Virus record (IMG/VR): IMGVR_UViG_3300025168_000874
Location: 1-20,490 of that record
Reading direction: 5' to 3' (one strand)
From: a virus
Length of the DNA: 20,490 nt
Shown: piece by piece, positions 7,866-19,114 of the stretch
How positions within the stretch are numbered: the stretch's first letter is position 1
Layout: each line of letters opens with the position of its first letter
Program-made: the position numbers and the translations under genes
The notes under the pieces: generated by a model
Told to the model about the DNA's origin: nothing
The model's input: only the letters and a program-made list of their open reading frames with translations
Databases searched by the model: none

Positions 7866-9413
7866 ATGACAGTAAATCCAAATAGAATTCAAAAAGATTA
7901 TTATGAAGGAAATGACTATGGAGATTATCAATTTACTTCGTTACAAGATATTATAAATCAATTTTTAGTTGTATACGTTGGAGAAGGAAAAATAATTAGC
8001 AAAACAAATAAAATAGATGTTGCTTTTCATGCTCAAAGAGCTTTGCAAGAATTATCTTTTGACACATTTAAATCTGTAAAAGCACAAGAAATAGTTTTAC
8101 CGCCTTCATTACAAATGATACTTCCTCATGACTATATAAACTATACAAATTTAGCTTGGTCAGATGCTTCTGGTGTACAACACACTATTTACCCAACAAG
8201 TAAAACTTCAAATCCATTTAGTATTAGGCAAGATAACGATGGTAATTACGATTTTGGTGGTGCAACTGGTAGTTTTGCTAATTTTAATAACTCAAATTTT
8301 TCTACACCATTTGATTCAACTAACGACTGGACTGCTTCTGGTGCTAGAGTTATGTTGGCAAACGCTATTGAAAACCCAAACACTTTAGCTACTATAGATA
8401 TTTTTAACAGTGCAGCTGGTAAGTTAACGGCTAACATACATAAAGAGTTTAATAATTCAACTGGTGTTACTTTTGGTAGGCATTACAGCTGTTGGCAAGA
8501 AATAAATGTTAATGGTTTAGATGAACTTAATATTTCTGCAGATGGTATTGCGCCAGCTAATCAAACAGGTGCTTCTGGCGCTACTATAAGAATGGGTATA
8601 AGCAGTACAAAAGGTGATACAAGAACAAGTACACAGGCTGTAGCCCCAACTTTAAACGGCCAAACTTTTGGTGAAATACACCCTACATTTGGAGCTCTTG
8701 GACCTAGCTTTATACCACACATTGGAACGTCAGATAATTTAGCGTATTTGCAATGGACTGGTGGTACTGCTGCGGATAGTAGAAACCAAACGTTAAGTAG
8801 TATTGATGTTAGCGGTTATAACAATGTCTTTGTGTTAATAACAATGTTTGTTCCAGGCGATTTGTCTGCAATGGTTGACAATGCAACTGTAGATATAACA
8901 TTAGACAATATTGAACTAAGGTTTGAAGGAGATTATAACACTCTACAAGGAAACTCTGAATCTAAAACGTGGGCTAATTTTAAATCAGTTAACACTTCAG
9001 AAAACAATAATCAAGAATATAATACAGATGATTATAGTACAATAGTTGGAAAAAGATATGGGTTAGACCCTCAACATAGCCAAGTTAATGGTTCTTTTTA
9101 TATAGACAATTTAAAAGGTTTAATACATTTTAGCTCTAACATTTCAGGAAAAACTGTAATCTTAAATTATATAAGCGATAGTTTAGGTACTGATGAAGAA
9201 ATGCAAGTTCATAAGTTAGCTCAAGAAGCAATATATAAACACATAATGTATGCTATTTTGTCTACCAAAGCAAACGTGCCTGAGTACGTTGTTAGAAGGT
9301 ACAAGCAGGAAAGATTTGCTGCAACTAGACAAGCAAAACTAAGGCTATCAAATATTAAGTTAGAAGAAATAACACAAACGCTTAGAGGTAAATCTAAGTG
9401 GATAAAACACTAA
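7866..9413 (+). CDS. Head-tail connector/adaptor-like protein with inserted beta domain
   Basis: 515 residues in three parts. Residues 1-~132 look like a helical connector: FTSLQDIINQFLVVYVGEGK (23-42), then AFHAQRALQELSFDTFKS and VLPPSLQMILPHDYINY. Residues ~133-356 change character to Gly/Ser/Thr/Asn-rich beta sequence ending in a strand ITLDNIELRFEGD (344-356), which resembles the final strand of carbohydrate-binding jelly-rolls. Residues ~357-515 return to the connector type, with GTDEEMQVHKLAQEAIYKHIMYAIL, then Arg/Lys-rich helices ending LRGKSKWIKH. The first and last parts together would make a protein of about 290 residues, a more usual adaptor size, so the middle is best seen as an insertion in a surface loop. 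It lies between the 231-residue ring-like gene and the giant tail gene (three-base gaps on both sides). The adaptor role is an inference; the composite structure is visible in composition. Confidence 0.66.
   Translation: MTVNPNRIQKDYYEGNDYGDYQFTSLQDIINQFLVVYVGEGKIISKTNKIDVAFHAQRALQELSFDTFKSVKAQEIVLPPSLQMILPHDYINYTNLAWSDASGVQHTIYPTSKTSNPFSIRQDNDGNYDFGGATGSFANFNNSNFSTPFDSTNDWTASGARVMLANAIENPNTLATIDIFNSAAGKLTANIHKEFNNSTGVTFGRHYSCWQEINVNGLDELNISADGIAPANQTGASGATIRMGISSTKGDTRTSTQAVAPTLNGQTFGEIHPTFGALGPSFIPHIGTSDNLAYLQWTGGTAADSRNQTLSSIDVSGYNNVFVLITMFVPGDLSAMVDNATVDITLDNIELRFEGDYNTLQGNSESKTWANFKSVNTSENNNQEYNTDDYSTIVGKRYGLDPQHSQVNGSFYIDNLKGLIHFSSNISGKTVILNYISDSLGTDEEMQVHKLAQEAIYKHIMYAILSTKANVPEYVVRRYKQERFAATRQAKLRLSNIKLEEITQTLRGKSKWIKH
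8262..8933 (+). other. Inserted jelly-roll-like domain within the connector gene
   Basis: Codons ~133-356 of the connector gene encode a beta-rich segment of low charge with repeated Gly, Thr, Ser and Asn, between helical, charged flanks. It contains NDWTASGARVMLAN and WQEINVNGLDELNISADG strands and closes with DITLDNIELRF, the sort of terminal strand seen in CBM-like beta sandwiches. Its limits are estimated to within about ten residues. Confidence 0.5.
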
Positions 9414-9416
9414 TAT

Positions 9417-12400
9417 ATGCCAGAAATTAAAAACACTTTCACTCAAGGTAAAATGAATCAAGACCTTGACGAAAGAATTGTTCCTAATGGACAGTACATA
9501 GATGCGATGAATGTTAAAGTAACGTCTTCAGACGATGCTAGTGTTGGTGTTGTTCAAAATATATTAGGTAACTACAGAGTTGAAAGTATTATACCGCCAG
9601 ATGGAGGTTATGTGTGTATAGCAACAATTGCTGATGAAAAAACTAACAAGCTGTATTGGTTTGTTACTCAAGAATCTTCTGCAACACACGCAATACTTGA
9701 GTATGATTTACTAAATCAAACACCTAAAATTGTTTTAGTAGATAAAAAAAATGATACTTTAAAGTTTACTCAAAACATTATTACAGGTATAAATATAATT
9801 GACAATTTAATTTTTTGGACTGATAATTATAATGAGCCTAAAAAAATAAATATAGATAACTGTATAAAAGGCACAGAAGAGTCAAATCCAACTGTTACAA
9901 ATTTAAACAATGCACTTCACACAAGGTTAATAGTTGAAGGTGAAGACATAGGTGATATGTCAGAAAAAAATATTACAGTTATTAAAAAAAGTCCTAAACA
10001 ATCACCTTTAATTAAAACAAACAAACCTACCAACAAGAACACACCAAGGCTGTTCGAGCAAGTTTTTCCTAGATTTTCTTTTAGATACAAATATAGCGAC
10101 GGAGAATATTCTTCTTTTGGTCCTTTTACGCAAGTAGTATTTAACCCTGTGTATGTTGCTGATGAATACGATAGAAAAGACGCGTATTCCACTAAAGACT
10201 CTCATAATTTAGCAATGACAAATTATATAGAGTCTATTGAAATATCTAATTTTATTTCTTCTAGCACTCCAAAAGACGTTACACAAATTGAAATACTTTA
10301 TAAAGAAGATGGTTCTTCTGTAGTTTTTTCTATAAAAACAATTTATTATAATGATGAAGTGTGGATTAACAACACTTACACATTAAAATCAGAAGCTATA
10401 TTTGCTGCAATACCTTCAAATCAATTTTTAAGACCTTGGGATAATGTCCCTACAAAAGCTTTAGCACAAGAAATTACAGGTAACAGAATTGTTTACGGTA
10501 ACTACACTCAAGGTTATGACTTTTTGTCTTCAGAAAGCTTTAGAATAAGTAATAAAATTAATGCTGGTTTTGGTTTAAGAGAAAACAGCTTAACTTTTGA
10601 TGAGGGTGGTTTGCCATCTTTAAAAACTCAAAGAAATTATCAAGTAGGTTTTGTTTGGGGAGATAAATACGGTAGAGAAACACCTGTTTTTACTTCTGAA
10701 GATGGAGGTGTTAATATACCTTGGTACAACAATGATTTTGAATTACTAGCAAGTAAAAGTTTGTTTTTAAAAGCAAACCTTGTTACATTTATACCTAATT
10801 GGGCTGATTACTATAAAATTTATGTAAAAGAAACATCTGGAGATTATTATAATCTACTTATGGAAAAAGCATACCCGCAGTCACACATGAATGTTTTTGA
10901 TTTTGAAGAAGACCGTGTTTGGCTTGCTTTTCCTTCTGCAGATAGAAATAAAGTTGTAGAAGAAGATTATTTAATAATTAAAAAACAACTTATTGGTGAC
11001 CATAAGCAAATAGCCATTGAAAATAAGTTTAAAATATTAGATATACAAAACGAAGCTCCTGACGCTATAAGATTTGAATACACTTCTTTAGGTAAAGCAA
11101 CACAAACTAGTGATGGTGGTAGTGGTGGGTTTTTAGATGTAACTACTGGTTTGTTTTCAAGCGCTGAGTTTAGAATTGACCAAACAACAGACATGATTCA
11201 TGTTGATAAAAATAAATGGTTAAATACTTTAGGTGGCGCATCTTTATTACTTGAAGATAATTTATATATTTCAAATTTGTATATTTACTGGAGAACAGGT
11301 GGTGACGAGTCAGAAAGATACAAAGTAGTTGGTATTCTTTTTGAAAACAACACTTATAAGCTTAAACTACAAAAACCTATTGAAATTTATGATGCTGAAA
11401 TGGCAGATTCTACTAACGCATCAAACAGTACAACAACTGTTTTAGAAACTGATTTAGAGTTTATTATTGATAGAAAAGACAAAAAAGATTTAGATGAGTT
11501 TTCAGGTAAGTTTTTTGTTCAAATAGTTTACAAAATACCAGCAATGCCAGAAAGTTTTGATTCTAACCTTCCAACAAGAATTACAGGTCAATTAAGGTCA
11601 AACTGGTTATACGACCCTATCAGCGGGGACAGTGAGGACGCTAATGGTATTATAAATGTTGGTAGTGATTCAAGTCCAGCAGAAAACGAAACCTCTGAAG
11701 TAAACACCAGTAATATCGGACCAACAACTACATCAGTTCAATGGGAGCTTTTAGCAGCGTCAATAGATGCTAATACAAATAGAGGATTTTTTATTGACAA
11801 CATGTATATGGTTGCTGGACAGCCTTTTAACGATGTGTCACAAAGCACAAGTGTTAAAATTTCTGGAAAAACTTGGATTGGCTGGTTTGAAGGACCAGCT
11901 GATACAATGCCTACATGGGGTGAGTTTGATGATGGTAGTTACGGTTGGAAAGATGGAGATTTTGACCTTGCTTTACCAACGTCTTACAGCCCTAGGCCTT
12001 TTAGTAAGTTTGGTAGTAATAGAATTTTAGATGTTACTAAAGCAATGAACGGTTTAGAAGGATTTTTAACTACTGAGGGTGGACACATAGCAAATACAAT
12101 TGGAAATATTGCGCCTATTGATGGTTATAGAAGGTGGAAAAGCTCTGGAAGTGTTCAACTTCCTTTAACTGGTCTTGGTGATAATACTTATGGTGTTTCT
12201 GAATCAGCTCCAAACGGCATACATGGAGTTCAACCTAATGAAACTGGTAGACATTTTATACATTTATCTTTTTTAGCACCAGGTGTAGATTTACATGATG
12301 GTAATTGGGAATCAAACCCATTTAATTCAGTTCAATTATTTGGAGTAAACAGCCCTGGTAGCCACATGCAAGCGATATGGGGTGGTGGTATTTTTACTGG

Positions 12401-15400
12401 TAGTGGTGAAATACTTGAAATGGAAGGTAATTATGACGAATTTGATAATCCACTAGCTGGTACACCAGGTCCTGGTGTTGGTCAAGGGTATGACGATAGG
12501 TTTGATTATAGCGAAATGAATAGAAGGCAATGGGATCCTTCGTATGGCGGTACAGATGAGCAAAATAAAGAAATTGCAAATTTTATAGAAAATATTACTA
12601 TTGGAAACACGTTTCGTTTTTCATCTAATCAAGACAAAGTATTTAAAATAATAGGTACTCCAAAAATAAAAAGAATATACAACCACACGCCTTGGATAGC
12701 GCAATATAAGTGGGACGGATCAACACAAAACCCAACTGTTAATAGTGGTTTAACATTGTGTCAAAATAGTGTTGACGAGGCTGCTAGTGCTTGGCTTGAT
12801 GATACTTCTGACGCAACTAAATTTGAATTTTCAAACGCCGACTCGTTGCAAAAGAGAATTACTGAGTTTGGAAAAGCTAGTAACAGAAGAGTTGTTTATA
12901 TATTTGAAGTAGATGAAAATCCTGTAGACACTGTTAACTTGGTTAGAGGAACTGTTGATTATGACTCTAACAGTCAGTTAGACATTACTTTTGTGTCAAA
13001 CAGCCCTAATGCTTTATTAAAAGATTTAATTAAAGGTACTGCAATATGGGAAACGGAAGCTAAGCCAGGTGAAAATTTAGACCTTTATTATGAGGCTAGT
13101 CAAGCAATACCACTGTATTTAACAAACGAAACAAACGAGCTTTTTGCACCTATAGGTTCAAAAGTAGAAATATTACTTAACGACGCTAAAAATGGTCAAT
13201 TTAATATTGATGGTGATGTTTTTTTAGAATCTTGGAATAACGCTGAAATAACAGTAACAGGTGGCGGTGATGGTAGTGATTTTGGCTTTAATGTTAAAAA
13301 TGCAGCTGACCCTGCAGAAGACATAGACTATGCAGGTGCACAAATAAGATTTTTTAGACCAGACGGTAGTTACACTACAACGCGACTAACTGGTATTCCA
13401 CAGCCGCAAACTGGAGATTTTGTAGCTATATTTAATTTAGACCCAACTTTAGATCCTTCTATGGAAGTTGGATTAAGTTACTTTAATTGTTATTCTTTTG
13501 GTAACGGTATAGAATCAAATAGAGTAAGAGATGATTTTAATGCGCCTAGTATTTCTAAAGGTGTTAAAGCTTCTTTAGTTTTAGATCAAGAATACAAAGA
13601 AGAAAATAGAAAAAATGGCTTAATATACTCTGGTATTTATAATTCAACTTCAGGTGTAAACAATTTAAATCAGTTTATAATGGCTGAAAATATTACTAAG
13701 GATTTAAACCCCACATACGGTAGTATACAAAAATTATTTCAAAGAAGAATAAGTTTAGTTGCTTTTTGTGAAGACAGGGTTGTAAGCATAACATCCAACA
13801 AAGATGCTTTGTTTAATGCTGATGGAAACTCTCAGTTAGTGTCTACTAACAACGTGCTTGGTGATGCAACACCTTTTGTAGGTGATTTTGGTATATCTAA
13901 AAATCCAGAGTCATTTGCTAAAGAAAGCTACAGGGCTTATTTTGCAGATAAACAAAGAGGCGCAGTTCTTAGGTTGTCAATGGACGGTATAACAGCTATT
14001 TCAGACTCTGGTATGGACGATTATTTTAGAGATAATTTAAAAATAGCAGGGCAAATTATAGGTAGCTACGATTCGCACAGTAAAAATTACAATATAACAT
14101 TACAAGGCGCTAATCCAGGTGAAAATATTATATCTAATAACTTTATTAGTATAGGTGTTGGAAGTGAAGATGCTCAAGCTCCTGTTGAAATAATTATTGA
14201 TGGAGATATAACTAACTACAATGATATAGTCTCGCCTACAATAGACCCTTCAACTAATATATATAATAATGACGCTATAAATATTGCCACTACAATAACA
14301 AACTATGACGCAATAGGTATTGGTGATTTAATTTCAGAAGTAACATCAACAACTACTACTACCGTGTCAAACACTGACTTTACGACAGACCCTACTAACC
14401 CAAGTTTTTACTATGGATCTTATACTGACGACCAAAAGCCAAATCCATTCGACCCAGGTCAAAACGATTTTAAAATAAAATCTTATAGTGCTAGTCCTGG
14501 TAATTTTCCAGCAAACCGTGATAGTTTTCAATATCCTACACACGACGATAACAACCCCAGTACTAACCCTACTGGTCAAGAGTCTACAAGTACTTATTTT
14601 TACGACCATCCGTCAAATATTATACCAAGTACTGACGTTTTTTGGAACCCTGAATCAAATTCTTATAATGGTCTTTACATGGGTAATCCACCTGGTACTG
14701 GTACACCGTGGTTTCATGAAAACTCTTCATCCGGTGTAGGTGAAGGTATTGTTTTTGATGGAACTTCTGCTACTAACATTATAACCTCTTTAGTAATACC
14801 AGGTGATCCAACTTACGTGTCTCCAAACCACGTACCTGCTCAAGTTCAGACTCAATATATTGATGCTGAAGATAACACAATATTTAACGGTGAAGAAGTA
14901 AAAATAAGGTTTTACTTTAGAAATGCAAATTATTTTAGTATTTTTGGTAATACAAGTCCATATATTAGAAGAATTAATATACAACTTTATGATGGCACAA
15001 CAGCGCTAGGTAATAGCGTTTTATTAGATACTGACTCTATTACCGGTAACGTAGGAAGTATGACAGACACAAACTATTCTACCTATCACATTATACCAAC
15101 ATCCTCCCCATACAGAGTAGGTTATACAACATCGGCTAGTTTTAATTTTGCAAATATTGCTCATGACAACAACGAACTACATGAAATTTATTTTAAATTT
15201 ACAGATGGTACTGAAAACGAAGGAATAGTAGTTCAAGATTTACAAGTTCATATATCAGTGGTTCATGGAGACACTAATCCTCAACAAACTGGTATTACTG
15301 CTGGATCTATATCTAGTTTAAATATTAGAAAAGTTTTTGAATTAACATCTGCTTTTGAACAAACAACAACAACAACAATAGATAACCCTCCTGTTCCAGA

Positions 15401-17498
15401 CGTAGAAATACCTGCTTTTGCAACCGTAGCACACGTTTTCCAAGGTGGATGGAATTTAAAAAATGACAATACTAATGTTATTTATTCAGACGCAACTACT
15501 TTTACATCACGAGCAGTAACTGCTTACGGATCAGAGTTTAGTGATTTAACGACATATACGCTAGACCAACTTGATTCATCTGGTCAAGCAACAGGTGTTA
15601 CTGCAACATATGTTTTTCCAACAGATGGAACCTTAAGTAATGGTGATACTGGTTATAATGATCAAACTGATGGTACTTATATTACAGATGATAAGTTGTT
15701 TATAAACCAAGAATTTGGTGGTGTTAGAGTTAGACAATTTTCTCTTAGCGTTGCTCAAGGCGATTGGTATATGGTAGATTTGATTTATAATAGTTACACA
15801 GCTGGTAGTGATATAACAATTTTGTCAGACGGTAGCTCTAATGGCGTTGTTTTTGAAATAGTAAACACAGATATATATGGTACAAATCAAGACGTATTAA
15901 GAGCTGTTTTTCAAATAGATAGTGATCAAAACACATTCAACAAAGTATTATTTTTAATACCAGAAGATGTTATTATAGAAATTGAAGAGCTTAAGTTGAT
16001 AAAAATAAACGATCCAATGACTGGTGGTGATATAGCAGATTGGGATTTTAATACACAACCTAATTCATCTGAACATTCTTTTGACCCACCAAGTGTATAT
16101 GGTAGCGCTAATGGTATTGAGTTTAACGTTGATATTAGTGACAGCAAAAGATATGTTTATCAAAACTTTACCACGCCTCCAACTCCAACTAATAGTGGTT
16201 ATAAACTTCAATTTGAAATTTCTAACTATGTTAGTGGTTCTTTAGATTTGTATACTATAGGTGTAGACGCAAACGGTAACCCAGAAGGTATAACAATTAA
16301 AGATGTAATAGACGCAGATGGTAATTATTCTATTGATTTTAATTTTGACTATAATAGCTATGATCTTATAAACGACGGTGTTGCTGTAGGTCAAACTATA
16401 CCGGCGTCAACACCAAATATAACATCAATGACAAATCTTGTTATATTTCAAAGTGATTCTATCAATGGCTTTATTGGTTGTGTAAAAGACATATCGCTTA
16501 TTGATATTACAAATTATTTTACAGGAGCAAGTATTGATTCTTTTAATATTACTGGGTTTGACAATCAGTTTAACGAGTATATAGATTTTCAAGAAACAAC
16601 AGGTAATGGACAAATTATATTTACAAATGCACCAATAATAGGTGATTTATCAACTTTAGCTAACCCTAATAGTCAAGTGCAAATAGAACAAACAATAAGC
16701 CAAGCCATACAACAAGATAACACATATAGACTTTCGTTCGATCACGATCTTGACTCTGGTAGTTCTATAGGTGTTTATTATTTTAGTTCAATAGATAATA
16801 AAGGTTTTAAAGTTGAAAGTATAATTGGAACTGATACATACAACTTTTTACACACAATGGATCAAGACCATATTGCTGACCATCTTAAAAATACGTTAGT
16901 TTTCTTTGTTAGCAGTGACAACACTAGTGGTACTATAGATAATATAGTGTTAAGACAAGAGTTTGCTTTATTACAAACTGAAACAATAAGTTTTAGTGAA
17001 AACGTTAGAGGTTGGGTTAGTAAAAAATCTTTTATACCAGAACAAGGTCTTAGTGTATCAAGCGAATATTTTACAACAAACAAAGGACGTTTGTACGAGC
17101 ATAATAAAGAATTAATAGTTAATGAGATTGATACTAACAGAAATACTTTTTACGGATTATACGAACCATCTACTATTACTGCTGTTTTAAACGAAAGCCC
17201 TTCATCAGTAAAAATATTTAATACTTTAAATTATGAAGGTAGTCAATCAAAAATAATTGCGGGTGATCCAGCTGTTTTAAGAGGTGGAAATACTTATAAT
17301 ACATTAGATACTTACAATTTAACCGAAGAAAAAGGTTGGAGTGTAGAGTATATAAAAACAGACAAACAAGAAGGTAGTTTAAGTGAGTTTATAGAAAAAG
17401 AAGGTAAATGGTTTAATTATATTAAAGGATTGTCTACAGATATAAAAACTTCTGATTTAAGCTTTCAAGGATTAGGAGTTGTTAAACAAATATTTTGA
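9417..17498 (+). CDS. Giant virion protein (tail/stabilisation-type backbone with inserted beta domains)
   Basis: 2693 residues, 40 % of the window. Residues 1-~560 begin with MNQDLDERIVPNGQYIDAMN (13-32), include two YWTD-propeller-like strands (LYWFVTQ 79-85; LIFWTDNYNEPKKINID 131-147), KYSDGEYSSFGPF (225-237), ALAQEITGNRIVYGNYTQGYD (348-368) and VGFVWGDKYGRETPVFTS (410-427). I remember this signature set from large structural proteins of marine and crAss-like phages. Residues ~1200-1565 continue that backbone (TAIWETEAKPGENLDLYYEAS, LNQFIMAENITKDLNPTYGS, VGDFGISKNPESFAKESYRA). Residues ~2519-2693 complete it (FSENVRGWVSKKSFIPE, IEKEGKWFNYIKG). Between the blocks lie large Gly/Asn/Thr/Asp-rich beta segments. 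There is no signal peptide and no enzyme motif that I can identify. It probably forms part of the tail tube/hub or muzzle with surface-exposed binding modules. The stop is TGA, with an in-frame TAA two codons later. Confidence 0.75.
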   Translation: MPEIKNTFTQGKMNQDLDERIVPNGQYIDAMNVKVTSSDDASVGVVQNILGNYRVESIIPPDGGYVCIATIADEKTNKLYWFVTQESSATHAILEYDLLNQTPKIVLVDKKNDTLKFTQNIITGINIIDNLIFWTDNYNEPKKINIDNCIKGTEESNPTVTNLNNALHTRLIVEGEDIGDMSEKNITVIKKSPKQSPLIKTNKPTNKNTPRLFEQVFPRFSFRYKYSDGEYSSFGPFTQVVFNPVYVADEYDRKDAYSTKDSHNLAMTNYIESIEISNFISSSTPKDVTQIEILYKEDGSSVVFSIKTIYYNDEVWINNTYTLKSEAIFAAIPSNQFLRPWDNVPTKALAQEITGNRIVYGNYTQGYDFLSSESFRISNKINAGFGLRENSLTFDEGGLPSLKTQRNYQVGFVWGDKYGRETPVFTSEDGGVNIPWYNNDFELLASKSLFLKANLVTFIPNWADYYKIYVKETSGDYYNLLMEKAYPQSHMNVFDFEEDRVWLAFPSADRNKVVEEDYLIIKKQLIGDHKQIAIENKFKILDIQNEAPDAIRFEYTSLGKATQTSDGGSGGFLDVTTGLFSSAEFRIDQTTDMIHVDKNKWLNTLGGASLLLEDNLYISNLYIYWRTGGDESERYKVVGILFENNTYKLKLQKPIEIYDAEMADSTNASNSTTTVLETDLEFIIDRKDKKDLDEFSGKFFVQIVYKIPAMPESFDSNLPTRITGQLRSNWLYDPISGDSEDANGIINVGSDSSPAENETSEVNTSNIGPTTTSVQWELLAASIDANTNRGFFIDNMYMVAGQPFNDVSQSTSVKISGKTWIGWFEGPADTMPTWGEFDDGSYGWKDGDFDLALPTSYSPRPFSKFGSNRILDVTKAMNGLEGFLTTEGGHIANTIGNIAPIDGYRRWKSSGSVQLPLTGLGDNTYGVSESAPNGIHGVQPNETGRHFIHLSFLAPGVDLHDGNWESNPFNSVQLFGVNSPGSHMQAIWGGGIFTGSGEILEMEGNYDEFDNPLAGTPGPGVGQGYDDRFDYSEMNRRQWDPSYGGTDEQNKEIANFIENITIGNTFRFSSNQDKVFKIIGTPKIKRIYNHTPWIAQYKWDGSTQNPTVNSGLTLCQNSVDEAASAWLDDTSDATKFEFSNADSLQKRITEFGKASNRRVVYIFEVDENPVDTVNLVRGTVDYDSNSQLDITFVSNSPNALLKDLIKGTAIWETEAKPGENLDLYYEASQAIPLYLTNETNELFAPIGSKVEILLNDAKNGQFNIDGDVFLESWNNAEITVTGGGDGSDFGFNVKNAADPAEDIDYAGAQIRFFRPDGSYTTTRLTGIPQPQTGDFVAIFNLDPTLDPSMEVGLSYFNCYSFGNGIESNRVRDDFNAPSISKGVKASLVLDQEYKEENRKNGLIYSGIYNSTSGVNNLNQFIMAENITKDLNPTYGSIQKLFQRRISLVAFCEDRVVSITSNKDALFNADGNSQLVSTNNVLGDATPFVGDFGISKNPESFAKESYRAYFADKQRGAVLRLSMDGITAISDSGMDDYFRDNLKIAGQIIGSYDSHSKNYNITLQGANPGENIISNNFISIGVGSEDAQAPVEIIIDGDITNYNDIVSPTIDPSTNIYNNDAINIATTITNYDAIGIGDLISEVTSTTTTTVSNTDFTTDPTNPSFYYGSYTDDQKPNPFDPGQNDFKIKSYSASPGNFPANRDSFQYPTHDDNNPSTNPTGQESTSTYFYDHPSNIIPSTDVFWNPESNSYNGLYMGNPPGTGTPWFHENSSSGVGEGIVFDGTSATNIITSLVIPGDPTYVSPNHVPAQVQTQYIDAEDNTIFNGEEVKIRFYFRNANYFSIFGNTSPYIRRINIQLYDGTTALGNSVLLDTDSITGNVGSMTDTNYSTYHIIPTSSPYRVGYTTSASFNFANIAHDNNELHEIYFKFTDGTENEGIVVQDLQVHISVVHGDTNPQQTGITAGSISSLNIRKVFELTSAFEQTTTTTIDNPPVPDVEIPAFATVAHVFQGGWNLKNDNTNVIYSDATTFTSRAVTAYGSEFSDLTTYTLDQLDSSGQATGVTATYVFPTDGTLSNGDTGYNDQTDGTYITDDKLFINQEFGGVRVRQFSLSVAQGDWYMVDLIYNSYTAGSDITILSDGSSNGVVFEIVNTDIYGTNQDVLRAVFQIDSDQNTFNKVLFLIPEDVIIEIEELKLIKINDPMTGGDIADWDFNTQPNSSEHSFDPPSVYGSANGIEFNVDISDSKRYVYQNFTTPPTPTNSGYKLQFEISNYVSGSLDLYTIGVDANGNPEGITIKDVIDADGNYSIDFNFDYNSYDLINDGVAVGQTIPASTPNITSMTNLVIFQSDSINGFIGCVKDISLIDITNYFTGASIDSFNITGFDNQFNEYIDFQETTGNGQIIFTNAPIIGDLSTLANPNSQVQIEQTISQAIQQDNTYRLSFDHDLDSGSSIGVYYFSSIDNKGFKVESIIGTDTYNFLHTMDQDHIADHLKNTLVFFVSSDNTSGTIDNIVLRQEFALLQTETISFSENVRGWVSKKSFIPEQGLSVSSEYFTTNKGRLYEHNKELIVNEIDTNRNTFYGLYEPSTITAVLNESPSSVKIFNTLNYEGSQSKIIAGDPAVLRGGNTYNTLDTYNLTEEKGWSVEYIKTDKQEGSLSEFIEKEGKWFNYIKGLSTDIKTSDLSFQGLGVVKQIF
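11097..13013 (+). other. First variable region of the giant protein
   Basis: Codons ~561-1199. It starts after the conserved NEAPDAIRFEYTSLG segment with a Gly-rich TSDGGSGG linker. Two beta domains can be guessed: one around 570-715 and one around 715-830 closing with a GFFIDNMYMVAG strand. A Trp/Gly-rich stretch follows (KTWIGWFEGPADTMPTWGEFDDGSYGW, 818-844), then a Pro/Gly-rich loop (NPLAGTPGPGVGQGYDDRFD, 1011-1030). Residues from ~1060 (TFRFSSNQDKVFKIIGTPK) look closer to the backbone type, so the true insertion may end there. Boundaries are approximate. Confidence 0.4.
14112..16970 (+). other. Large C-terminal insertion of the giant protein (~950 residues)
   Basis: Codons ~1566-2518. 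Upstream, the backbone runs to GSYDSHSKNYNITL (1549-1562); downstream it resumes at TETISFSENVRGWVSKKSF (2521-2539). In the relatives I remember, these two segments lie close together, so this block appears inserted. Inside are an Asn/Ile/Asp-rich stretch (1570-1640), a ~330-residue region flanked by two poly-Thr linkers (TTTTT at 1645-1649 and 1983-1987), and then three beta-sandwich modules (next entry). There are no charged coiled coils and few cysteines. Confidence 0.55.
15390..16964 (+). repeat. Three tandem, diverged carbohydrate-binding-like modules (protein level)
   Basis: Codons ~1992-2198, 2199-2364 and 2366-2516 share an order of motifs. Each has a central strand of the type Y-x-(L/V)-x-(F/L) followed by a Gly/Ser turn: WYMVDLIYNSYTAGSDITIL, YKLQFEISNYVSGSLDLYTI, YRLSFDHDLDSGSSIGVYYF. 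Each ends with a hydrophobic strand pair: NKVLFLIPEDVIIEIEELKL, NLVIFQSDSINGFIGCVKDI, NTLVFFVSSDNTSGTIDNIV. The last two line up best. The DNA itself is not repeated, so the duplication is old or the modules were acquired separately. The likeness to CBM-type jelly-rolls is by eye. Confidence 0.5.
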
Positions 17499-17515
17499 CC
17501 CTAACATAATATAAC

Positions 17516-18787
17516 ATGGATATAAAAACAATTAACTCAGTACAAATAAATCAAAGCAACATGTCTGCTGCTGCGCAAACAAGATTATTAAAAATTGTAG
17601 GTGACCTTGGCGCTAGCTTTATTGTTAATGTTATTAAAATAAATGGAACTGGTAAAGAAAGCTATTACAATTTTAAAACAAGCGCTTTTACAGACGCTTT
17701 TGTTTCTGCTAATGCTTTGAAAGGAACTGTAGGCTCTAGTATTTTTTCAGTACCTATAGTTTTTCCAGCTGATTCTTCTGGTGATGTGTATAGCATAATT
17801 GTGTTACCATCACAAAAAAATACAGTGTTTAAAAAAGGAGTTGGAGTTGTTAATAAAAAAATAACTCAAGTTGGTCAAACAACAGTTTCAATAGATGTTG
17901 ACGAAGGTACTGAAATTAACTCTGCTTTTACAGCCAAATACACTGCAAACCCACCAGATGCAGTTGTTTCTAGTGTAGGCTCTACTGTACAGCCTGGCTT
18001 TACAAACATACCTGTTGATTGGACTTTAACAAATACCTCTAGTGATGCAAATGGTTTTGGCTTTATGCTTCCTAATAGACCAGCCTCTAATCAGTTTACA
18101 ATACCAGACTCATATTGGTTCACTGCAAAAGTTGGTATTTGCAACGGAACTATTTCTAGCTCTACAACGTTAGTTTTAGACAGTGTTGCTAGTTTAGTTG
18201 TTGGCATGACACTTTCAACAGTAAGCTCAGGTAGTATATCTGGAGCTCCTGTAATAACAGCAATAAATGGTAACACTCTTACACTTTCTGTTGCTCAATC
18301 TATAGCTAACGATGTTAACATTGGGTTTAGGGCTTACGGTCCAGCTTTAATAAGTAAAGTGTTTGGAATGAACATAGCTTTTAATAATTTTGTTGCAATA
18401 GGAACTCAATTAATAAAATCAGTTAGAACAAATACAGCTTTTCCAGAATCTGATAGCAATGTAACTCTTAATTTAAACGGTACATATGGTATTTCAGGTG
18501 GTAACTTAGTTAGTTTTAACGGTTTTAATATCAATGCTAGTGGTAGCAATAACTTAATTGCAAGTGTATCAGCTAGCGCTACAGCGGGTAGTGTTGTTGT
18601 TGAATTTATAGGATCAGCCGAAGGAGTTGTTGCAGCTGTTGTTCCTGTTGGAACTAAAATTTACATAAACGGTTCTCATCAAGAGATAAAAGTAACTGGT
18701 ACTGTTACTATAAACAAATACCCAGCAACTGATTCTAGATTAGCTTTAGACTTAACTAAATTTATAACACACGGCGCTGCCTCATAA
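17516..18787 (+). CDS. Beta-rich virion structural protein
   Basis: 423 residues, rich in Ser, Thr, Val, Ile and Gly and poor in charge, typical of an exposed beta-structured phage protein. The first ~100 residues (MDIKTINSVQINQ.., DVYSIIVLPSQKNTV) are alpha/beta. Residues ~209-275 carry the pattern CNGTISSSTTLVLDSVASLVVGMTLS followed by ISGAPVITAINGNTLTLSVAQSI, a small beta domain (GMTVTGTGISG..-like) that I remember from many phage structural proteins. The C-terminal ~150 residues continue as Gly/Asn/Ser-rich strands, ending LDLTKFITHGAAS. No transmembrane or catalytic motif. It follows the giant gene after 17 bases and precedes the 107-residue gene by three bases, so it is likely a tail-associated or decoration component. 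The start is the ATG after an A/T leader; the next in-frame ATG is at codon 16 and would remove a conserved-looking N-terminus. Confidence 0.7.
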   Translation: MDIKTINSVQINQSNMSAAAQTRLLKIVGDLGASFIVNVIKINGTGKESYYNFKTSAFTDAFVSANALKGTVGSSIFSVPIVFPADSSGDVYSIIVLPSQKNTVFKKGVGVVNKKITQVGQTTVSIDVDEGTEINSAFTAKYTANPPDAVVSSVGSTVQPGFTNIPVDWTLTNTSSDANGFGFMLPNRPASNQFTIPDSYWFTAKVGICNGTISSSTTLVLDSVASLVVGMTLSTVSSGSISGAPVITAINGNTLTLSVAQSIANDVNIGFRAYGPALISKVFGMNIAFNNFVAIGTQLIKSVRTNTAFPESDSNVTLNLNGTYGISGGNLVSFNGFNINASGSNNLIASVSASATAGSVVVEFIGSAEGVVAAVVPVGTKIYINGSHQEIKVTGTVTINKYPATDSRLALDLTKFITHGAAS

Positions 18788-18790
18788 GAT

Positions 18791-19114
18791 ATGAAAATAA
18801 CACTAGAAAATAATATAGAAAACAATTCTTTACAAGTTGGTGATCAAGCTTACTATGTATCTTTAGATCAAGGTTATGGTACTAGCGATCCTAAACCTCT
18901 TGGGCAAATAACTGAAATTAGTAATGATTATATAATAGTAGATCCTGGAGATAGTAATTTAGTACTAGAAGATTTTATAATGTTTTCAAAAAATAAAGAA
19001 GTAAATAACAGTAGTTTACTTGGCTATTACGCTGAAGTAAAATTAACAAATAATTCAATTGAAAAAGCAGAGCTATTTGCATTAGGTTCTGAAGTGTTAG
19101 AAAGTAGTAAATAA
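18791..19114 (+). CDS. Small conserved virion-region protein
   Basis: 107 residues, acidic, with an SH3-like all-beta look: NSLQVGDQAYYVS (residues 13-25), LGQITEISNDYIIVDPGD (37-54), DFIMFSKNKEVN, then GYYAEVKLTNNSIEKAELFALGSEVLESSK at the end. The C-terminal pattern (GYYAEVK...KAELFALGSEV.ESSK) is one I remember as a recurring small protein in marine phage structural operons, where its exact job is not known to me. It is only three bases downstream of the 423-residue structural gene, so they are probably translated together. No signal peptide or membrane segment. Confidence 0.72.
   Translation: MKITLENNIENNSLQVGDQAYYVSLDQGYGTSDPKPLGQITEISNDYIIVDPGDSNLVLEDFIMFSKNKEVNNSSLLGYYAEVKLTNNSIEKAELFALGSEVLESSK

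Follow-up and report, generated by a model that had tools for sequence, protein, structure and literature searches.

A turn near the C-terminal end of a crassvirus-type muzzle protein as a probable docking loop for modules resembling carbohydrate-binding modules

The muzzle protein gp44 of phage phi-crAss001 (PDB 7QOK/7QOL/8CKB; PMC10172136) is encoded after the ring protein and carries the crAss_MUZ_C domain. Its IG2 domain spans residues 318-1021 and, in the accessible sections of the structure paper, the variation in muzzle length is attributed to crass and IG2 domain insertions (PMC10172136). The DNA analysed here, a 20,490-base IMG/VR virus fragment ("the window"), codes for a muzzle-type protein with the same position in the gene order and the same C-terminal domain, but with an insertion at a turn, named site A, where gp44 has none. 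Site A lies C-terminal of the crass and IG2 domains, in which those sections of the gp44 paper place the insertions.

ORF calls and PHROG matches showed that the window carries a podovirus structural gene run (Table 1). ORF 9417-17498 is a single open frame of 2693 aa without interruption, and its product matched the structural family phrog_14478 and the small family phrog_18548. PF25729 (crAss_MUZ_C) was detected with 49.4 bits, the gathering cut-off being 27, and a profile of the right backbone flank aligned to residues 1202-1282 of gp44 (7qok_A, E 3.7e-7); PF25729 begins in gp44 at residue 1244, so that the similarity starts some 42 residues earlier. Among the proteins scanned, PF25731 (crAss_MUZ) was scored by gp44 alone: the window protein, phi38:1, elemo and the compact relative L020 gave no match, although the last three aligned to the window muzzle across the same core. 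By homology, the 2693-aa product is assigned as a crassvirus-type muzzle protein. The source phage, a marine podovirus of the Bacteroidota type, has Elemovirus, Pachyviridae and Pervagoviridae among its relatives, with the crassviruses more distant.

The window protein aligned to compact relatives in pieces, the last two of which were residues ~1344-1566 and 2522-2693. Profile borders put the end of the left backbone at residue 1566 (nt 14114) and its resumption at residue 2522 (nt 16980), with 955 residues between. In compact homologues the same flanks were contiguous, with a spacing of 1 residue in L019 (junction 1557/1559), 2 in L020 (1021/1024), 2 in phi38:1 (1076/1079) and 3 in Gundel (1154/1158); the junction in elemo was 1241/1260, and in a sample of 80 IMG/VR loci the 49 with an empty site had a spacing of 2-23 residues. 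A sequence-only reading of the window had described the two segments as neighbours in the family that are held about 950 residues apart here, at 14112-16970, and had proposed the alignment of these flanks; the adjacent flanks of the homologues agree with that description, and its borders are a few codons off the profile borders 14114/16980. In these alignments site A corresponds to a tight turn at gp44 residues ~1199-1202, where the muzzle core approaches its C-terminal end, and, from the known propeller, it would be the turn of a beta-hairpin (strand-turn-strand). Further turns of the window muzzle also accept insertions, the one at site A being the largest seen.

Table 1. Features of the window and gene breaks at site A in relatives
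Feature	Position	Strand	Basis or description
Portal-type gene	start of structural run		match phrog_6547
Capsid-type gene	after portal-type gene		match phrog_13704
Two proteins	between capsid-type and muzzle genes		matches phrog_14543 and phrog_13977
Insert of ~237 residues in ring-type protein (ORF 7866-9413)	8250..8960	+	gap between conserved halves
Muzzle-type tail-tip protein, 2693 aa	9417..17498	+	PHROG 14478 E 1e-122; PF25729; gp44 match
Left backbone flank, residues 1344-1566, end SYDSHSKNYNITLQ	13446..14114	+	profile across 28 muzzles
Site A insert, 955 residues (1567-2521)	14115..16979	+	absent or 1-23 aa in empty homologues
D0, leading segment (ENIISNN...)	14112..14366	+	model confidence low at start
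D1, predicted beta-sandwich module and long poorly modelled stretch	14367..15359	+	AlphaFold2 model, structural comparison
D2, predicted beta module, fold class less certain	15387..16013	+	pLDDT 53-88
D3, predicted CBM66/CBM-like beta-sandwich	16017..16517	+	Z 9.0 to CBM66 4b1m
D4, predicted CBM4/16-like beta-sandwich, most widespread module	16515..16970	+	Z 10.7 to CBM4-2 4bj0
Right backbone flank, residues 2522-2693, crAss_MUZ_C at 17136-17426	16980..17495	+	profile, Pfam, gp44 match
423-aa gene at site B	17516..18787	+	sub-threshold CBM_6 match
107-aa gene homologous to last ~90-100 residues of compact muzzles	18791..19114	+	blastp, alignment
phi13:2 split			499 extra residues, stop, gp121 takes up backbone at residue 3
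ctfjg026 split			352 residues, 183-aa gene annotated putative glycosidase, then resumed backbone
L021 split			129 residues, genes of 961 and 315 aa, then resumed backbone
L012 split			break within a block still ending in D4
L110 split	L110:8940-9010		TAA, 9 nt, ATG in same frame; nothing inserted at turn

The inserted block comprises segments D0-D4, which are conserved in most filled relatives. As read from the letters alone, it opens with a low-complexity stretch and ends just before the backbone: the ~85 leading residues, which modelled poorly, include a T-rich stretch and the last module stops ~4 residues before the backbone. A first AlphaFold2 model of the block (mean pLDDT 49.9) was confident solely over block residues ~550-953, that is the end of D2, D3 and D4; in a second model, from a deeper alignment, the mean rose to 69.3 and D1 and D2 improved. 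The models matched dozens of carbohydrate-binding modules (CBMs) and related beta-sandwiches, including CBM4, CBM16, CBM22, CBM29 and CBM66. The match of D4 to CBM4-2 covered 137 aligned residues at an rmsd of 4.0, and the D1 region (block residues 92-414) matched CBM-like and Stig-cyclase folds with Z 8.4-10.7 (8.5-9.3 for CBM4, 22, 27 and 29). Sialidase and toxin lectin-type domains, cyclases and Eph receptors also appear in the match lists; such unrelated proteins of a common fold indicate the fold class, not the function. The models support a block of three to four tandem beta-sandwich modules resembling CBMs (Z about 9-10.7), in line with the beta character noticed at the outset; the beta-sandwich (jelly-roll) fold is best modelled for D3, D4 and D1.

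No Pfam CBM match was obtained from nine blocks at E <= 1, and the block is therefore not filed as a member of a CBM family. Foldseek with the second model gave no match at E <= 0.001, the block alone had no match among phage records, and its profile found nothing convincing in the PDB. A structural search of BFVD matched many tail proteins with poor overall superposition and was set aside, and a search for D4 relatives in bacteria yielded an alignment of insufficient conservation. Comparison by hhalign (95% probability, E 3.5e-8) identifies D3 and D4 as paralogues, and gave 16% probability (E 0.0016) for D2 and D3. D4 was present at site A in 23 sampled loci. D3/D4-like modules were also found elsewhere: six loci have them in the insert of the ring protein (best iE 5e-6) and two have them close to the N-terminus of the muzzle; in L114, a D3-like module occupies muzzle residues 131-215, instead of a block at site A.

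Site A was found empty, filled or split among the relatives. In the first 26 loci and reference phages it was filled in nine, empty in thirteen and split in four. The 80-locus sample, which includes seven contigs of the first set, was taken in order of similarity to the window from more than 600 matching contigs, and population frequencies cannot be read from it: 49 loci were empty, 25 filled in frame (469-1353 aa), four had 118-307 aa and two were gene-split. The content also differed: L060 has a 930-aa block without detectable similarity to D0-D4, L044 and L066 have a ~475-aa block with D4 alone among the D modules, phi13:2 has Big_9/cadherin-like content (E 4e-21) and L021 a marginal BACON match (E 4e-4, below cut-off). 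In the split state (Table 1) the backbone is nicked into two genes at site A, and a second polypeptide would be needed to complete the tail-tip fold; the L110 break is known from one contig and could be due to sequencing error. The block is thus not a conserved stretch of ~950 residues common to all homologues, being often absent and poorly conserved where present. The early proposal of a loop used as insertion site for stacked modules is supported, since the modules are replaceable across homologues and the flanks are contiguous without them.

The block is the fastest-changing part of the protein. Its identity to the nearest relative, L004, was 48%, against 94% and 80% for the left and right flanks; for L005, L006 and L008 the values were 36, 38 and 33% in the block, 91, 88 and 85% in the left flank and 77, 79 and 67% in the right flank. 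Compared with the rest of the protein, the block is low in K+R (3.4 vs 8.9%) and, from the Gly/Asn/Thr/Asp richness described in the sequence-only reading, enrichment holds for T (10.8 vs 7.1%), D (9.1 vs 7.2%) and N (9.3 vs 8.2%) but not for Gly (7.5 vs 7.8%). GC, GC3 and codon usage did not differ between the block and the rest of the gene (RSCU r = 0.97), which gives no indication of a recent foreign origin.

We consider it likely that the site A turn is a docking loop and that the roughly four CBM-like modules arrayed on it serve for contact with the host surface, a role to which fold, divergence and replacement point. This turn would hold the predicted beta-sandwich modules as an in-frame array, partly the product of duplication (D3/D4). 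If each tail has six copies of the muzzle, as that of crAss001 does, its tip would be decorated with about 24 outward-projecting modules, which would most likely hold the host capsule or another surface glycan before the muzzle opens. Tail-fibre-type genes were observed on the contig of the near relative L008 (L116:8301-12461), one of which matched phrog_5668 (E 1e-26); with separate genes of this type in L008, host range would not have to depend chiefly on the block.

The modules could instead serve as structural decoration: as jelly-roll spacers they would make the tail tip longer or more stable, or shield it, and bind no receptor. This we regard as unlikely: many tail proteins without proven binding do contain beta-sandwich/Ig-like modules, a relative has separate fibre genes and the block matches no CBM sequence family, but a block that diverges fastest in the protein and swaps with unrelated content looks less like a scaffold than like a surface in contact with the host.

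The tree of 99 rows, in which the filled label changed at least four times on well-supported branches, bears on whether the block is an ancestral muzzle part lost by compact relatives. Loss does happen, as at least one empty locus, L114, nests within the filled clade; however, the outgroups (Gundel, phi38:1, elemo, L020, crAss001 and cr127) are empty, which makes empty the likely ancestral state, and the content of the block varies by lineage, so ancestry of the block is very improbable. An intein or other self-removing sequence, which would suit in-frame presence/absence variation at one conserved point, was rejected with near certainty: the N border has no Cys/Ser, the C border no HN-[CST], Pfam found no intein domain and the predicted fold is a tandem beta-sandwich. 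An assembly chimera was likewise dismissed, because the arrangement, seen here on a single metagenomic contig, is common to independent contigs (L004-L010, L024 and about 21 further distinct ones) and shows no composition break.

The homologous sequences indicate a second dock, site B (17499-19114): the last ~100 backbone residues of the muzzle have a separate 107-aa gene in the window, behind the inserted 423-aa gene. By blastp the 107-aa protein matched phi13:2 gp121 (152-239, E 1e-8), elemo (1405-1491, E 5e-7) and phi38:1 (E 6e-6); its profile did not match gp44 in the PDB, and the homology comes from the phage muzzles alone. Among the 88 loci in which both parts were found, ten were compact, with the crAss_MUZ_C region followed within about 13 residues by the last ~90-100-residue segment, and in 78 this segment had a gene of its own, set apart by an in-frame extension, by one or two genes, or by both. 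The extensions include GCTD...DGSC repeats, a weak fn3 match and Big_9/cadherin-like domains. Tandem GCTDPxAxNYxxxAxxDDGSC repeats open the extensions after the muzzle C-domain in L052, L058, L071, L073, L084 and L103; repeats of this type occur in Bacteroidota secreted proteins. Long in-frame extensions at site B were confined, on raw counts, to loci with an empty site A (23/49 empty vs 0/25 filled, p 9e-6), but a trade-off is not claimed, because the tree has only three independent pairs, none decisive.

In the ring-type protein, the gap between the conserved halves is 12-48 aa in compact relatives and 155-293 aa in most. Within the window's own group, hhalign detected no similarity of the ring insert or the 423-aa protein to the D modules. 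Taken together, the data are explained most simply by a small number of turns in the muzzle and ring proteins of these phages at which modules can be accommodated. The variants of site A across relatives suggest a dock that can be used repeatedly, for parts that may come into contact with the host. On balance we favour, with less assurance than for the window itself, a general role for site A as the docking turn in crass-like muzzles, which independent lineages filled with unrelated adhesion modules or nicked (phi13:2, ctfjg026, L021, L110); at site B, the window and most relatives would provide the last ~100 backbone residues as a small separate protein, encoded behind an inserted module gene.

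These results give the exact point in a conserved tail-tip protein at which phages plug in, swap or detach modules. They predict a muzzle built from two or three polypeptides; neither such a muzzle nor a gene break at site A is mentioned in the accessible sections of the gp44 structure paper (PMC10172136). Cellulophaga phage phi13:2 (gp120 + gp121) is like the window in that its 499 extra residues begin at the same turn, and unlike it in their Big_9/cadherin-like content and in the stop codon that divides the backbone into two genes. The muzzles of Elemovirus, phi38:1 and Gundel share the homologous backbone (about 25-35% identity), but their site A is empty (2-18 aa). With cultured relatives that have the insert (phi13:2, grown on its laboratory host Cellulophaga baltica) and lack it (phi38:1, elemo), muzzle-mediated host contact is testable. 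The predicted beta-sandwich fold is shared with CBM4, CBM16, CBM22 and CBM66 modules (Z about 9-10.7), from which the block differs in having no detectable sequence-family membership. The BACON-repeat tail protein of p-crAssphage (PMC10136315) likewise presents fast-evolving tandem binding-type modules on the tail, but as a separate tail protein and not in a muzzle loop.
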